Position numbers and translations under genes: made by a program. Under the pieces are notes generated by a model. The model was not told the origin of the DNA. It ran no database searches and worked only from the letters and a program-made list of their open reading frames with translations. Positions 4,460-23,826 of a DNA stretch of 23,826 nucleotides are shown here, piece after piece (the first letter of the stretch is position 1; every line of letters begins with the position of its first letter). The DNA comes from a virus: positions 1-23,826 of IMG/VR virus record IMGVR_UViG_3300008119_000047; one strand, 5' to 3'.

Positions 4460-4488
4460 ATTATAGCAAACAACTACAAGGTTGTCAA
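4460..4488 (-). promoter_or_regulatory. Consensus sigma70 promoter for the ligase operon
   Basis: On the minus strand TTGACA (4488-4483), a 17-bp spacer and TATAAT (4465-4460) match the consensus exactly. The predicted start is near 4453, leaving a short leader with Shine-Dalgarno AGGAA before ATG 4426. The -35 box overlaps the 3' end of the ClpP-like gene. Confidence 0.92.
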
Positions 4489-5072
4489 CCTTTTTCTTGG
4501 AAAATATGATCGGCTACGCCCAATTCGATTAATTCATCAGCAGTCAAATACACATCAGATGCTGGCAAAAGTTTATTTTTAACAGATCGAGTATCCAATC
4601 CGGTTACTTCTTTTAGAATGTTTACCATTCTCATGTTGCAATATTCGGACTCTTTCATTTGAGCTTTGATATCGTGGTACTTGGCATCCATTCCATCAGT
4701 GAATTGATGACACATGATTCCAGTATTTGGAGCAATATAGCGTTCACCATTTTCGCCAGAAGCAAAAATTAAAAAGGCAGCACTCATAATATTACCCATA
4801 CCAATTGTACGTATTTTGTGAGTACTCACCCGCATCACATCTATCAGAGCAAATGCTTGATACAAATCACCGCCACTGCTATTGATATAAAGAGTTAGCA
4901 CTTTTTCTTGTTTTTTATCAAGATTTTCGTAAACAATCCATTTAATAGCTTCACTTATATTAACATCCTCAATTTCGCCCAACAAGAAGTGAACGCCGTT
5001 GTCCAGCAACTTGGTGTTTATGCGATCCTGCGCATTGAATTCGTCGATTTTTTTCACGGGTTTGCCTTCCAT
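4485..5072 (-). CDS. Divergent ClpP-like serine protease, 195 aa
   Basis: A ClpP/crotonase-fold protease. The oxyanion loop is seen in NSSGGD (64-69), Ser97 sits in IMSAAF, His122 in MCHQF, and Asp173 in SDVYLTADE, so a full Ser-His-Asp triad is plausible. The sequence is clearly different from the canonical ClpP at 6226-6846: GMGNIMSAA replaces GQACSMGS, and there is an insert NENGERY-type loop. ClpP subunits form barrel-shaped heptamers; phage copies can act with host ClpX/ClpA, as partners of a second ClpP, or as capsid-maturation proteases. Its location one gene from a second ClpP, with a plus-strand probable structural gene between them, fits the last two options. Confidence 0.88.
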   Translation of the reverse strand: MEGKPVKKIDEFNAQDRINTKLLDNGVHFLLGEIEDVNISEAIKWIVYENLDKKQEKVLTLYINSSGGDLYQAFALIDVMRVSTHKIRTIGMGNIMSAAFLIFASGENGERYIAPNTGIMCHQFTDGMDAKYHDIKAQMKESEYCNMRMVNILKEVTGLDTRSVKNKLLPASDVYLTADELIELGVADHIFQEKG

Positions 5073-6220: not shown

Positions 6221-6231
6221 ATTGTTTAGGG
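6216..6231. terminator. Small palindrome between convergent gene ends
   Basis: CCTAAA-TTG-TTTAGG (6 bp stem) sits exactly between the stop of the plus-strand gene (6220) and the stop of clpP (6226). It has no T-run, so termination activity is uncertain. Confidence 0.35.
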
Positions 6232-6846
6232 TCGTTTTTCAATCACTTTATCAGCCAAGCCGTAGGCCACTGCTTCTGCGGCACTCAAAAATGTATCAAA
6301 CTTCATAGCTTCGTACAGCTGAGCATAGGTTTTGCCCGCTGTATTGTGCTTAACATACAGTTCTGTCAAACGCTGATTAATACGTTGACTTTCTTCAAAG
6401 CTACGTTTTGCATCTTCAAACTGAAGTTCTTGAACGTGAACGCTACCACGTGTTCCCGGAGTTCCCGAACTAACACGGTGAATCATAGTACGAGCTTCTG
6501 GAAGCACAAATCGTTTTCCTGGATGTCCGGCCTGTGCTAAGAAACTGCCCATACTACAGGCTTGTCCCATAACATAGGTTGCTACATCTGGTTTTACAAA
6601 TTGCATGGTATCGTAAATAGCAAGGCCAGCAGTAACAGATCCTCCAGGACTATTAATAAAGAAAGTAATGTCTTCATTACCTTGACTCTCCAAGAAGAGC
6701 AACTGCGCCACAATCAAACTGGACGTATGCTCGTTAACATCCGTATCTAACATAACAACACGGTCCTTGAGCAAACGACTATAAATGTCATATGCTCTTT
6801 CGCCCTTGGGCTCACTTTCAATTACCATTGGTACCAAATTAGGCAT
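6226..6846 (-). CDS. clpP: ClpP protease, canonical type, 206 aa
   Basis: A near-canonical ClpP. It has the FFINSPGGSVTAGLAIYDTMQ strand-helix (about 62-82), the active serine Ser98 in GQACSMGSFL, His123 in MIHRVSSG and Asp184 in FDTFLSAAEA. The ERAYDIYSRLLKDRV segment near the N-terminus matches the usual ClpP start (GERAYDIYSRLL), and the length matches bacterial ClpP without a long propeptide. It would form the heptameric proteolytic chamber that works with a Clp unfoldase; no unfoldase gene is visible here, so it would need the host's. The second, divergent ClpP lies 1.2 kb away, as in bacteria with ClpP1/ClpP2 pairs. Confidence 0.95.
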   Translation of the reverse strand: MPNLVPMVIESEPKGERAYDIYSRLLKDRVVMLDTDVNEHTSSLIVAQLLFLESQGNEDITFFINSPGGSVTAGLAIYDTMQFVKPDVATYVMGQACSMGSFLAQAGHPGKRFVLPEARTMIHRVSSGTPGTRGSVHVQELQFEDAKRSFEESQRINQRLTELYVKHNTAGKTYAQLYEAMKFDTFLSAAEAVAYGLADKVIEKRP

Positions 6847-15979: not shown

Positions 15980-17386
15980 TTAGATATCGTAGCGTGGGAC
16001 CATTACAGTCTTAAGCATGATACCTTCTGGAGTGAATTGGTCCATATCCGCTGACAGCAGTGCTGTCATGATGCTTGGGCTAAATCCACTTACCAATGCG
16101 GCACCACTCTTGTCTGCCTTAACAGGCACATTGTCTGAACTGTTTAGGTTCCAGAAAACAATTTGTGGCACAACATAGCCAGCAGTTTCAAACTTGCGTT
16201 CGATCATTTCCATTGCGCTGTCGTCGAAACGGGCGCATTGGTTAAACTGCATGTCTGACAAGATCAGCAACATCTTTGGCATGTCGCTTGCTGGTACTGA
16301 ACCCTTAACTGCAACGCTTAGGATCTTGTCCATAGCGGCATGCAAGTTAGTGCTCATTTCCCAATCACTCTTAGACATTTGGGTTACCTTGTCAACAATG
16401 TTACCCTTTAGAGTAACAAGTTGTGGCTTGCTGGAGAAAGTCAAGAATGTGTCCTTGAACACACCCTTGTTCTTATCAGCCAAGTACAAGCCTAGGCCAA
16501 CCGCAACATCCAAACAACGAACAGTCGAACCCGGAACAGATGTTGTCATCGAACCAGATACGTCAACTAGAGGCAGGATACTTGCGTCACCTACGTAGTT
16601 AGGCAGAGCGTCCCATTGTGCGATCACATGGTCAATTTCTGTCTTGTTCAGCTTGTTGTAGCTGTGAGCGATTCCCTTCAGTACGTCATGTGGGAAGATT
16701 GCGCTGGCGTTAACCTTGACAGTCTTATCACCACTTACCAACTTGGCCACATACTCAGCAAATGCTGGTGTGTGACGGTTGAATGCCTTCTTGTAGTTGC
16801 GAGCAGCTACAGAAGGAACGTGACTGAAATTGATGTTATCCCAATCTCCTGCACACATTTGGGTTTCAACAACCTTTGTAAGAGTAACAAGACTCTTACG
16901 ATATTGCTTTGGAGTCATGCCAAAGAAGGCACGAACTTCAGCGGCAATTTGACCCTTACGAGGAGTCCACTTTGCAGCCAAACCGTTCTTAGCACGTAGG
17001 GCATCACCCAACATGGTATAAGCGGCTGACTTCAGGTCAGGGTTAGAGAAGACAAAGATGTCATCCCAACGACCAACTTCTGGAATCTTCTTTAGAAGAG
17101 CCAAAGCGGCGTCTGGGTCACGCTTTTCTAGATGTACTAGAATATCGCGGAACAATTGACGTTCGCCTGCGCCACCGCGGACATCACGTGCCCATTGTGC
17201 GATGCGTAGTGCTACATCAGAGTTTTCTACGTAGGCGGCTGTGAAGTCGCCTGTGATGTCCTTACCACGGCTTGCGCCGATCTTGTAGAACAAGTCAACT
17301 GTAGCCTTGGCTGTTGACTTACGAGCCTTCATACCGTTTGCGGTACGGGCTTCTTGATTTGCTACTGCATTTACAAATGCGTTCAT
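15980..17386 (-). CDS. Ro60/TROVE-like (DUF2828-type) vWA-domain protein, 468 aa
   Basis: The first ~260 residues are helical repeats with the block RDVRGGAGERQLFRDIL (about 68-83) and KKIPEVGRWDDIFVF (about 99-113). This matches the 'RdxRGGxGeR...P.yGrwdDL' pattern shared by TROVE and DUF2828 proteins. The C-terminal part is a von Willebrand A domain with a complete MIDAS motif DVSGS (275-279) and a later LILSDMQF aspartate. Ro60 is a ring that binds the 3' ends of misfolded RNA and Y RNAs; in bacteria it can be tethered by Y RNA to exoribonuclease. Shine-Dalgarno AAAGGAAATATC precedes ATG 17386. Long leader and tRNA-mimic RNAs nearby support an RNA-binding role. DUF2828 versus true Ro60 cannot be decided by eye. 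Confidence 0.85.
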   Translation of the reverse strand: MNAFVNAVANQEARTANGMKARKSTAKATVDLFYKIGASRGKDITGDFTAAYVENSDVALRIAQWARDVRGGAGERQLFRDILVHLEKRDPDAALALLKKIPEVGRWDDIFVFSNPDLKSAAYTMLGDALRAKNGLAAKWTPRKGQIAAEVRAFFGMTPKQYRKSLVTLTKVVETQMCAGDWDNINFSHVPSVAARNYKKAFNRHTPAFAEYVAKLVSGDKTVKVNASAIFPHDVLKGIAHSYNKLNKTEIDHVIAQWDALPNYVGDASILPLVDVSGSMTTSVPGSTVRCLDVAVGLGLYLADKNKGVFKDTFLTFSSKPQLVTLKGNIVDKVTQMSKSDWEMSTNLHAAMDKILSVAVKGSVPASDMPKMLLILSDMQFNQCARFDDSAMEMIERKFETAGYVVPQIVFWNLNSSDNVPVKADKSGAALVSGFSPSIMTALLSADMDQFTPEGIMLKTVMVPRYDI

Positions 17387-17389
17387 GAT

Positions 17390-17890
17390 ATTTCCTTTAC
17401 AGAATGTGTTTTTTCTTTTATAGCGAAAAAGTTAAAGTTGCTGTTAACATTCTAAATTTAACAGGATGATCGTGCCAATTTGTTTAGTATTCTGGTCTGG
17501 CCAATTACGGCACCCAGACCCTATCAACATTCATGTTGCCTATTACATATTCTTCTGTATGTAAATCATATTCCAGATTCTCTGGACCTATCTATTCTAT
17601 CAGTGTCTATTTCTAGAAAGCATTTCTGCCTGTCCTCCGACCACCTTCTATAGCATTAAGATGTAGTTTAAATTGCTGTAGTCATCCTATGACTAACAGG
17701 ATCGTTGTTGACTGCTTTTATTTTACTCAGGCCATCACTCTGAGCTTGTTGGTTTGTTTCAATAGTTCCCCTTCAATGCTCGGTGGTTTTACGCACTCTG
17801 CTCCAGTTAACTACCACAGTGACCAACGGTTCATAGTATATGAATGTTGCTGTACCGATCCTAAAACTCTTTAGCATTGTTACTTGCTAT
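17390..17890 (-). ncRNA. Long structured leader or ncRNA upstream of the Ro-like gene
   Basis: About 500 nt without a plausible CDS. The transcript from the promoter at 17897-17925 would contain a run of hairpins: a 7-bp TAGTCAT/ATGACTA (17678-17694), a 7-bp GGTCTGG/CCAGACC (17494-17520), CTCAG/CTGAG and CAACA/TGTTG. Two copies of a ~42-nt unit are present (17665-17705 and 17430-17473). Each has ACGATC..CCTGTTA near one end and ACAGCAA-TTTAAACT-like sequence at the other; a third ACAGCAACATT copy lies near 17843. No T-loop is present, so it lacks the tRNA module seen in the array RNAs. It may be a riboregulator of the Ro-like gene or a separate RNA. Confidence 0.55.
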
Positions 17891-17956: not shown

Positions 17957-18033
17957 TGGAGTGGGTGACAGGACTCGAACCTGCATAAAACGGATTTGCA
18001 ATCCGGGGCCTAACCATTCAGCGGCACACCCAC
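17957..18033 (-). tRNA. tRNA-Cys (GCA)
   Basis: Perfect 7-bp acceptor GUGGGUG/CACCCAC, U73 and encoded CCA. Anticodon loop UUGCAAA gives GCA. T-loop UUCGAGU. U73 is the usual Cys discriminator. Confidence 0.95.
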
Positions 18034-18407: not shown

Positions 18408-18499
18408 TGGTACCAGCGGAGGGAATCGAACCCTCTCAAGAACGCTAATCTGGCGCTAAAAGGTTTATAAAACCTCTCTGACTACCAAGTCTCGCTGGC
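18408..18499 (-). tRNA. Class II tRNA with apparent UAU anticodon, identity uncertain
   Basis: Acceptor GCCAGCG/CGCUGGU with A73 and CCA, T-loop UUCGAUU, and a long variable arm (AGCG..CGUU) typical of Leu/Ser/Tyr tRNAs. The 7-base loop UUUAUAA would give UAU (Ile AUA codon), which does not fit a class II tRNA. The D-arm is a short GACU-UGGU-AGUC and position 8 is not U. It may be a degenerate or recoded tRNA. Confidence 0.75.
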
Positions 18500-19296: not shown

Positions 19297-19300
19297 ATAA

Positions 19301-19411
19301 CTTTAATCAAACACACTTTACACTTTTCTCAACGGTGGTGTGTAGTCCTTACAACCCAAACTATGTTTAGGCAAAATGTATTTGATTAAAGTGTCTAGCT
19401 ACCTACACCAC
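19301..19411 (-). ncRNA. Pseudoknotted RNA between fMet and truncated Asn tRNAs
   Basis: A 14-bp helix pairs 19301-19314 with 19378-19391. Its only mismatch on the plus strand becomes a G:U wobble on the minus strand. A second helix pairs 19335-19345 with 19403-19411 (9 bp, 2-nt bulge) and crosses the first, giving an H-type pseudoknot. A 7-bp hairpin CCUAAAC-AUA-GUUUGGG lies inside and also needs the minus-strand wobble. No coding potential. Confidence 0.55.
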
Positions 19412-20140: not shown

Positions 20141-20225
20141 TGGTGGAGTATCCTGGGATCGAACCAGGCGTGCCCGAAGGCGGCGGATTTACAGTCCACT
20201 GCATCACCATTGATGCTTCTACTCC
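20141..20225 (-). tRNA. tRNA-Tyr (GUA)
   Basis: Class II. Acceptor GGAGUAG/AUACUCC (last pair G:A mismatched), A73, CCA. Loop CUGUAAA gives GUA. Variable arm GCCGCCUUCGGGCACGC. Confidence 0.92.
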
Positions 20226-20315: not shown

Positions 20316-20319
20316 ATAA

Positions 20320-20396
20320 CATATTAAAACACACTAGGGGCTATGCCACCTTACGATTCCAGAATTCTCGGATGTTGCCTAATGTGTTTTAATATG
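20320..20396 (-). ncRNA. Long-stem hairpin RNA filling the Glu-Leu tRNA spacer
   Basis: 17 consecutive base pairs join 20380-20396 (CATATTAAAACACATTA) to 20320-20336, with a single wobble that is possible only on the minus strand. They enclose 43 nt with a palindromic AGAATTCT. The helix begins in the CCA of tRNA-Glu and ends 5 nt before tRNA-Leu(UAG). It could be a ncRNA or a processing signal for the array. Confidence 0.6.
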
Positions 20397-20470
20397 GTAC
20401 TCGGTAGGGGAATCGAACCCCTCTTCCCGCCGTGAAAGGGCGGTGTCCTAGACCGATAGACGAACCGAGC
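20395..20470 (-). tRNA. tRNA-Glu (UUC)
   Basis: Acceptor GCUCGGU/ACCGAGU, A73, CCA. Loop CUUUCAC gives UUC. First tRNA behind the promoter at 20506-20534. Confidence 0.95.
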
Positions 20471-22581: not shown

Positions 22582-22693
22582 AGGATAGAATTTAACATAG
22601 TGCTACCGTTACACCAAACCTTGCGGCTACGGAGTCGAACCGTTCCTTTTCTTTTCAAGAGAAGTGAGTTATAATTTTTGCTGTTACTATCCT
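22582..22693 (-). ncRNA. Y RNA-like circularly permuted tRNA mimic (element 1)
   Basis: On the minus strand the ends pair over 7 bp (AGGATAG/CTATCCT) plus 5 bp (TAACA/TGTTA). After a purine/U-rich region with a TTCT..AGAA hairpin come, in order: a T-arm ACGG-UUCGACU-CCGU (22643-22629), immediately an acceptor-like stem AGCC-GCAA-GGUU capped by a GNRA loop (22628-22617), the linker UG (equivalent to U8, R9), and a D-arm GUGU-AACGGUA-GCAC (22614-22600). This is the order of a tRNA opened at the anticodon and closed at the acceptor, the plan of YrlA-type bacterial Y RNAs. There is no CCA, no anticodon and no ORF. It lies between tRNA-Thr and tRNA-Gln. Confidence 0.8.
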
Positions 22694-23037: not shown

Positions 23038-23112
23038 TGGTGGTAACGGTGAGATTCGAACTCACACCGGGCGCCGTATGAAGGCGGTGCACAACCATTA
23101 TGCTACGTTACC
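23038..23112 (-). tRNA. tRNA-Met elongator (CAU), or Ile2
   Basis: Perfect acceptor GGUAACG/CGUUACC, A73, CCA. Loop UUCAUAC gives CAU. The first pair is G:C, so it is not an initiator. If C34 were modified to lysidine by host TilS it would read AUA (Ile); sequence alone does not decide. Confidence 0.9.
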
Positions 23113-23181
23113 ATATGGAAACATTCTATCTTAGCCATCAAGAGGCATTGCGTTATACGTCTTTAGAATGTTTTCATATGG
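23111..23181 (-). ncRNA. 18-bp long-stem hairpin filling the Lys-Met tRNA spacer
   Basis: 23164-23181 pairs with 23111-23128 over 18 positions with one mismatch. The helix starts in the CCA of tRNA-Lys(UUU) and ends in the first bases of tRNA-Met. A 35-nt loop holds a small UCUU/AAGA hairpin with a 7-nt loop. Layout matches the spacer hairpin at 20320-20396. Confidence 0.55.
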
Positions 23182-23253
23182 TAGGGGCACAGGGACTCGA
23201 ACCCTGATAGACCGGTTAAAAGCCGGCTATTCTAGCCTTTGAATTATACCCCC
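23179..23253 (-). tRNA. tRNA-Lys (UUU)
   Basis: Acceptor GGGGGUA/UGCCCCU (G1:U72 and one more wobble), A73, CCA. Loop CUUUUAA gives UUU. Confidence 0.93.
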
Positions 23254-23413: not shown

Positions 23414-23556
23414 GCCGTTCTCCTTTGTTGAATTAGTACAAGTTGTTCACCGCACAACTTGTAAGGCGGGGGTCTGTTGAATTTGTAAGTAGTTGCCCCA
23501 TCGTTATAGCAACCATTCACCCGTGTAATAAACTCGAGCGGGACTCGGTACGTCAC
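23410..23556 (-). CDS. Possible small protein between tRNA mimic and mini-ORF
   Basis: A minus frame with possible GTG start at 23556 reads VTYRVPLEFITRVNGCYNDG and ends LVLIQQRRTA; it looks protein-like (Tyr-rich, mixed). The best Shine-Dalgarno (AAAGGAGA, 23585-23578) lies too far upstream for this GTG, but fits a CTG at 23572. The frame further upstream only translates the tRNA mimic. Uncertain. Confidence 0.3.
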   Translation of the reverse strand: MTYRVPLEFITRVNGCYNDGATTYKFNRPPPYKLCGEQLVLIQQRRTA

Positions 23557-23670
23557 TTGGGATTCATCCAGTTTGTCTCCTTTACAGACCTCCGCCGTTC
23601 CCGGCAGGTGGGAGTTGAACCCAAAACCTTCTACTATACAATACCTTCGAAGAATACTGAATAGCGTGAC
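23552..23670 (-). ncRNA. Y RNA-like circularly permuted tRNA mimic (element 2)
   Basis: Same plan as element 1. On the minus strand GTCAC and ATTCAG near the 5' end pair with GTGAC and CTGGAT near the 3' end. Between them lie a T-arm UGGG-UUCAACU-CCCA (23623-23609), an acceptor-like 6-bp helix CUGCCG-GGAA-CGGCGG with GNRA loop (23607-23592), the linker AG, and a D-arm GUCU-GUAAAGG-AGAC (23589-23575). There is no CCA and no anticodon arm. The terminal helix is less regular than in element 1. The AAAGGAGA in the D-arm could also act as a ribosome-binding site for the small frame downstream. Confidence 0.68.
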
Positions 23671-23695
23671 TTCACTTGCTGACACTTACAAAACT

Positions 23696-23771: not shown

Positions 23772-23826
23772 AAATAAAACAGGATGTATTTTTACGGTTT
23801 TGATTAAAAGTCAAATGTATAATTTT

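Follow-up and report, generated by a model that had tools for sequence, protein, structure and literature searches.

Bacterial Y RNAs of the YrlA type (RF02553; Salmonella and relatives) carry a T-arm, an acceptor hairpin and a D-arm, in this order, inside a helix formed by the RNA ends, and a Ro60-family partner is encoded nearby. For Salmonella YrlA and the Deinococcus Y RNA, Rsr is reported to sit on the end stem and PNPase to be able to attach to the remainder of the RNA; YrlA also serves as a substrate of tRNA-modifying enzymes (PMC8394870; PMC4726728). One further proposal is that YrlA could act as a competitive inhibitor of an anticodon nuclease (PMC7790460). Y RNAs of mycobacteriophages have been reported as well (Chen 2014, as cited in PMC12282133). 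tRNA-like Y RNAs, including phage ones, are in this sense already known, and what purpose bacterial Y RNAs and Ro proteins serve has long been an open question. Circularly permuted tRNA genes occur in red algae and some archaea, and tmRNA keeps an acceptor with CCA.

We analyzed a 23,826-nt stretch of viral DNA (IMG/VR record IMGVR_UViG_3300008119_000047, positions 1 to 23,826; hereafter the window), in which an initial annotation had proposed a phage Y RNA, similar to those of the YrlA type, at 22582-22693. Our reading, to which we give a probability of roughly 0.8, is that this is a Y-type RNA that displays a tRNA body on a phage Ro protein; Ro binding, modification, function in infection and stable expression are all inferred. 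The Y-type part of the proposal is thus supported as the best reading, whereas membership in the Rfam YrlA family is not, because there is no match at the locus and the end-helix motif differs.

The RNA at 22582-22693 and its homologues

The RNA is organized as follows.

22582-22693, minus strand: permuted-tRNA RNA of about 112 nt, consisting of a docking helix and an enclosed rotated tRNA body (direct reading, minimum free energy fold, homologues)
22687-22693, minus strand: 5' strand of the docking helix, AGGAUAG, 7 bp (a helix class with 15 different sequences elsewhere)
22678-22684, minus strand: conserved strand ACAGCAA, 2 nt (UA) past the stem (183 distinct elements at the same offset)
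22649-22663, minus strand: anticodon-type stem-loop UUCU-CUUGAAA-AGAA with a 7-nt loop, U33 and purine 37 (A-U to U-A covariation)
22644-22648, minus strand: AAGGA, 5 nt in the place of the variable loop (direct reading)
22629-22643, minus strand: T-arm ACGG-UUCGACU-CCGU (A-U to G-C covariation)
22617-22628, minus strand: acceptor stub AGCC-GCAA-GGUU, 4 bp, capped by a GNRA tetraloop, without CCA (reading and homologues)
22600-22614, minus strand: D-arm GUGU-AACGGUA-GCAC, with UG before it (reading and homologues)
22582-22588, minus strand: 3' strand of the docking helix, CUAUCCU, then GUUU (direct reading)

The T-arm, the acceptor-like stem with its GCAA loop, the UG, the D-arm and the enclosing end helix had all been called by the initial annotation, and each can be read on the minus strand from 22693 to 22582. 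The same annotation had described a tRNA opened at the anticodon arm. The rotation holds; the opening, however, lies between the D-arm and the anticodon arm, and the anticodon hairpin, which had been missed, is kept. In anticodon-type numbering its loop CUUGAAA reads C32-U33-UGA-A37-A38, and since a hairpin with a 7-nt loop, C32, U33, purine 37 and A38 is followed by 5 nt and a T-arm, these parts are the anticodon arm and variable loop of a full rotated tRNA. The window RNA is therefore a whole tRNA body, rotated and opened between the D-arm and the anticodon arm.

All described helices are present in the minimum free energy fold (-25.6 kcal/mol). The energy itself is unremarkable (z = -1.35; 19 of 200 shuffles are as good), and significance therefore rests on the homologues. 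ARAGORN calls no tRNA at 22582-22693, and Rfam, searched with both gathering and permissive thresholds, gives no match beyond chance at this locus even at E<=10; the Y RNA and YrlA covariance models, which had been suggested as a check, are included in this result, and the 69-bit cut-off of RF02553 is not reached. The RNA meets the criterion for a permuted tRNA (rotated arms including the anticodon arm) and the Y RNA criterion of 5' and 3' ends paired in a conserved end helix. It does not meet that of a normal-order cloverleaf with a 7-bp acceptor (tRNA, RF00005) or that of processable acceptor ends (a 5' end plus CCA), as its 4-bp stem is capped by GCAA/GAAA. A rotated arm order is common to the window RNA and the permuted tRNA genes of algae and archaea; unlike these, it has no processable acceptor end, is opened between the D-arm and the anticodon arm, and is fused to a presumed protein-docking helix. 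As in tmRNA, a tRNA body (a partial one in tmRNA) is embedded in another RNA, but no tag reading frame is present here.

Homologues came from viral contigs searched with a DNA pattern in which a T-arm is closely followed by a D-arm, and from the loci around relatives of the Ro-like protein described below. The pattern also caught tandem ordinary tRNAs in the viral contigs, and only matches enclosed by a docking helix were therefore used. Each of the 23 proposed pairs is standard in all 14 distinct homologues, so that the 322 pair cells fit to 100%, compared with 38-48% when the partners are slid by 1-3 columns. Changes on both sides of a pair occur in the T-stem (A-U to G-C) and in the anticodon-type stem (A-U to U-A), in five sequences each, so that the covariation support called for by the initial annotation is in hand. 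The acceptor tetraloop in the homologues is GCAA or GAAA, and the 7-nt anticodon-type loop of the relatives is CUGUAAA or CUGAAAA. At L053:550, L057 and L103, a second tRNA-like RNA with a T-arm, a D-arm and hardly any acceptor stem lies about 120 nt upstream of the window-type RNA.

The position of the RNA between two tRNA genes and its ordinary fold energy would also fit a mere spacer in the tRNA array, or an intermediate of its processing, that is functionless by itself. Such a fragment does not account for a sequence conserved with compensatory changes, or for a docking module that also occurs outside tRNA arrays, next to Ro genes and in bacteria, and we regard this explanation as extremely improbable.

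The presumed docking module and its cargoes

The recurrence of the enclosing helix as a module is, together with the anticodon hairpin, an addition to the initial annotation. In related loci a 7-bp stem strand, two nucleotides and NCAGCAA on one side, and the complementary stem strand followed by GU on the other, surround quite different interiors. Exact 7-bp stems with the motif are found in 183 distinct sequences at the 2-nt offset and in only 0-3 at each other offset from -3 to 8. Thirty-nine permuted motifs give 21 hits in total against the 183 of the real motif (the permuted-motif sum of 204 includes the real one). Fifteen different stem sequences occur among the elements, and the docking helix itself therefore covaries. 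The window contains at least six docking elements: five complete ones, of which one is less certain (200 dinucleotide shuffles give 0.015 on average), and one cut by the window end. Apart from the RNA at 22582-22693, these are the following.

17698-17862, minus strand: docking element 1 upstream of the Ro-like gene, stem AGGAUCG, 165 nt, interior not obviously tRNA-like
17463-17688, minus strand: docking element 2 upstream of the Ro-like gene, stem AGGAUGA, 226 nt
17401-17453, minus strand: docking element 3, stem AGAAUGU, 53 nt, in the 5' leader of the Ro-like gene, with a 7-nt hairpin loop UCGCUAU
23459-23691, minus strand: probable docking element, stem UUGUAAG, 233 nt, with a T-arm; the least typical and less certain
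23781-23826, minus strand: 3' part of a docking element cut by the window end, with UUUGA-CUUUUAA-UCAAA, a tRNA-Lys(UUU)-type anticodon stem-loop (complete form in L131)

At related loci (L171) the UCAGCAAG strand, as in the element at 23459-23691, sits on a closed hairpin. Rfam holds no family for the docking elements of 13 phage and bacterial loci, and the signature is absent from Rfam 15. Nothing relevant on a TROVE-linked RNA motif came up in the literature searched, where DUF2828, one of the Pfam families of the Ro-like protein, was named in plant papers only. As far as our tools show, the ACAGCAA module, the anticodon arm in a rotated tRNA, the lone anticodon stem-loops and the tRNA insertions are new, although a prior partial description is not excluded.

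Elsewhere, docking elements hold permuted tRNAs, lone anticodon stem-loops or T-arms. A 5-bp hairpin with a 7-nt loop is found in 72 of 121 nonredundant short interiors, compared with 14.5 in shuffles that kept base composition only, and other loop sizes give 15-35. Some of these 72 hairpins are T-arms; 31 have a pyrimidine-U-NNN-purine loop, a pattern with a frequency of 4.8% in shuffles. The anticodon-type triplets of the short elements are diverse, UUU being the commonest. Docking helices also enclose a T-arm, acceptor and D-arm together, in 25 distinct combinations whose acceptor stems reach up to 9 bp; compensatory changes are found across these docked tRNA modules in the T, acceptor and D stems as well as in the docking helices.

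The docking helix also takes another form, that of a GNNA-capped hairpin inserted between the D-arm and the anticodon loop of otherwise intact tRNAs. The insertion of about 26 nt (stem, GNNA, stem, 4 nt, CAGCAA) is found in phages and Lachnospiraceae, with 29 cases at one exact geometry, 0-1 at others and none for 29 permuted motifs. The tRNA genes with this inserted docking hairpin include the following.

L212:6895-7140: Cronobacter phage S13
L210:9590-9860: Synechococcus phage BUCT-ZZ01
L131:4732, L240, L264 and L284: further loci; the insertion-type tRNA at L284:3675 is without any anticodon arm

This form is a circular permutant of the window RNA, and the presence of both permutations suggests a route by which such a tRNA mimic could arise.

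Cronobacter phage S13 also has a docking helix around a rotated tRNA-Tyr (L212:7154-7290) with a 7-bp acceptor, a discriminator A, CCA and a 7-nt linker, which might be a real permuted tRNA gene. Since the arm order of the window RNA is likewise a rotation of a tRNA, and the helix is the same, the window RNA could be taken for a circularly permuted tRNA gene whose transcript matures into a working tRNA. Its acceptor, however, is 4 bp long and closed by GCAA, without CCA or discriminator. With a closed 4-bp acceptor and a tetraloop conserved as GCAA/GAAA, no mature acceptor end can be made, and we hold a working tRNA to be highly unlikely here. A docking element on a Lokiarchaeota contig (L237:3751-3870) contains a T-arm, an acceptor plus ACCA, a linker and a D-arm, that is, a rotated tRNA with CCA.

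The Ro-like gene and its linkage to the module

The initial annotation had also noted a Ro-like gene 5 kb away on the same strand; the distance is 5.2 kb, and the Ro60 fold is recovered by Foldseek.

15980-17386, minus strand: Ro-like gene, 468 aa, Pfam DUF2828 and DUF7788, PHROG 850 'RNA-binding protein' (Ro60/TROVE fold)

The Pfam TROVE sequence profile is not hit by this protein at E<=0.001, only DUF2828 and DUF7788 being found, and a profile match to TROVE chains is weak (E 0.04). An AlphaFold model from a 33-sequence alignment, from which phage-collection proteins were left out, reached a pLDDT of 82.5; a single-sequence model (pLDDT 40.6) was discarded. Foldseek with the former gave three significant PDB matches, namely a TROVE domain (9kop, E 2.5e-8), the Ro60 of Thermus phage phiLo (9l5y, 6.2e-8) and a Ro60/La complex (9nfa, 2.7e-6), with modest TM-scores of 0.52-0.56. 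As judged from the predicted structure, the protein has the Ro60/TROVE fold, a helical-repeat ring plus a vWA domain, and with fold and families taken together the Y RNA criterion of a Ro60-family protein in the same genome is met. The phiLo protein is, like that of the window, a phage-encoded Ro60 fold, at about 17% identity. A relative of the Ro-like protein is found in 682 phage records.

These data bear on whether the RNA is simply an ordinary YrlA RNA (RF02553), the partner of a canonical TROVE Rsr. The order of T-arm, acceptor and D-arm is common to both, and another RNA from this phage group, enclosed by the same docking helix, does match RF02553 (31.4 bits, E = 1.8e-5 in the short stretch searched). 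That related RNA is, however, far below the 69-bit cut-off, and the Rfam model is blind to the window RNA. The end helix reads NN-ACAGCAA where the YrlA consensus has AUGC, so that the YrlA-type sequence criterion is not met; the window RNA has an anticodon hairpin in addition; several RNAs occur per genome, unlike in YrlA; and the Pfam TROVE profile is not hit. We therefore consider an ordinary YrlA RNA very unlikely.

The module is closely tied to Ro-like genes. In the window, three docking elements lie in tandem directly upstream of the gene. Across viral Ro loci, all 274 copies of the strict motif are on the Ro strand (274/274), and a looser motif gives 269 copies on the Ro strand against 6 opposite. 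A copy lies within 1 kb upstream of the Ro start at 79 of the 81 viral loci with enough upstream sequence, at 40 of them within 60 nt. Many of the viral loci are closely related, and these counts are not independent. Among 80 cellular Ro loci, found independently by protein alignment, 53 bacterial or archaeal ones hold 78 distinct copies on the Ro strand, with one copy opposite. A pattern search without protein input was still enriched for Ro loci (Fisher p = 9e-10); its loci were picked by tRNA-like sequence, and we take this value as supportive rather than as independent proof.

Many copies with variable interiors and palindromic ends could also indicate a hairpin or recombination site that acts at the DNA level, such as an attC-like or mobile repeat. 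The exclusive strand match of the strict motif to Ro genes, the compensatory evolution of the interior tRNA stems, the U33/purine-37 loop signature and the leader copy that adjoins a ribosome-binding site all speak for an RNA instead, and we find a DNA site hardly tenable.

Docking copies lie near the Ro-like gene in cultured phages of Synechococcus, Cronobacter, Listeria, Mycobacterium, Aeromonas, Enterococcus, Campylobacter and Salmonella. Three tandem copies precede the gene in Synechococcus phage BUCT-ZZ01 and Listeria phage 20422-1, and seven do so in Aeromonas phage LAh_9; copies in Enterococcus EFDG1, Campylobacter Los1 and Salmonella phage Meda were also found, some with small changes at the 3' end. 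Mycobacterium phage DuncansLeg has three copies downstream of its Ro-like gene, one with a tRNA body and phage-encoded as in the window, but with an acceptor hairpin of 7 bp and docking stems that start with UGGAC. A strict docking copy near the gene is absent from some DUF2828 phage loci (GAP32, OC). At the phiLo locus, which encodes a canonical TROVE phage Ro60, there is a single atypical match about 2 kb off and no typical docking element beside the gene; the link to Ro proteins in general is therefore unproven.

The leader element at 17401-17453 ends 14 nt before the ATG of the Ro-like gene, directly before AAAGGA, and is found in the same place in many relatives. This position before the ribosome-binding site suggests autoregulation of translation by the Ro protein.

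In Listeria phage CKA15, a homologue of the Ro-like protein was found by mass spectrometry in purified particles, with the authors' caution that not all proteins so detected need be particle-associated, and strong noncoding transcription was seen near the gene (PMC12282133). We considered the most transcribed noncoding stretch of CKA15 (26,236-26,727), the only one for which coordinates have been published, as expression of the docking array and rejected it, as there is no overlap with the array at about 25,256-25,554. The same stretch in Listeria phage 20422-1 (L214:2489-2980) contains no docking element and has no Rfam match at curated cut-offs.

Proposed function and surroundings

The Ro-like protein encoded at 15980-17386 very probably binds the docking helix, an inference from genomic linkage only, without binding data. 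We propose that the protein would hold the docking module and leave the tRNA body as the exposed effector part, so that the ribonucleoprotein may present tRNA shapes that cannot be charged or translated. Such a particle could serve as a tether, in which a tRNA-handling enzyme is tied to the Ro ring as YrlA reportedly ties PNPase to Rsr, or as bait, a decoy for host enzymes that attack tRNAs during infection. We consider the two models about equally likely; the lone, varied anticodon stem-loops of the array favor a target that reads anticodons. The leader copy before the Shine-Dalgarno sequence would probably let Ro limit its own translation.

A broader reading, to which we give even odds, is that the module is a general and uncatalogued docking tag of DUF2828-type Ro proteins in phages, bacteria and archaea, which displays rotated tRNAs, single stem-loops of differing anticodons, T-arms and GNNA-hairpin tRNAs to bait, sense or recruit enzymes that attack or handle tRNAs; genuine permuted tRNA genes may be among the carriers, the S13 tRNA-Tyr being one candidate. 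The tRNA-derived interiors point to tRNA-directed conflict or quality control. Because a simple signature locates probable RNA partners, and often more than one in a genome, next to the Ro-like genes of cultured phages and bacteria, the question of what Y RNAs and Ro proteins do becomes directly testable.

Several other features of the window were observed. Rfam sees two tRNAs that ARAGORN missed (17960-18033 and 20144-20225, minus strand), and a 92-nt tRNA at 18408-18499 (minus strand), called as Ile(UAU), stands out by the unusual length of its variable region. Long imperfect inverted repeats with arms of 20-22 nt, unrelated to the docking module, stand between tRNA genes at 20317-20399, 23109-23183 and 19300-19392. 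By eye, the open reading frames at 4485-5072 and 6226-6846 (minus strand) have the look of ClpP-type proteases.
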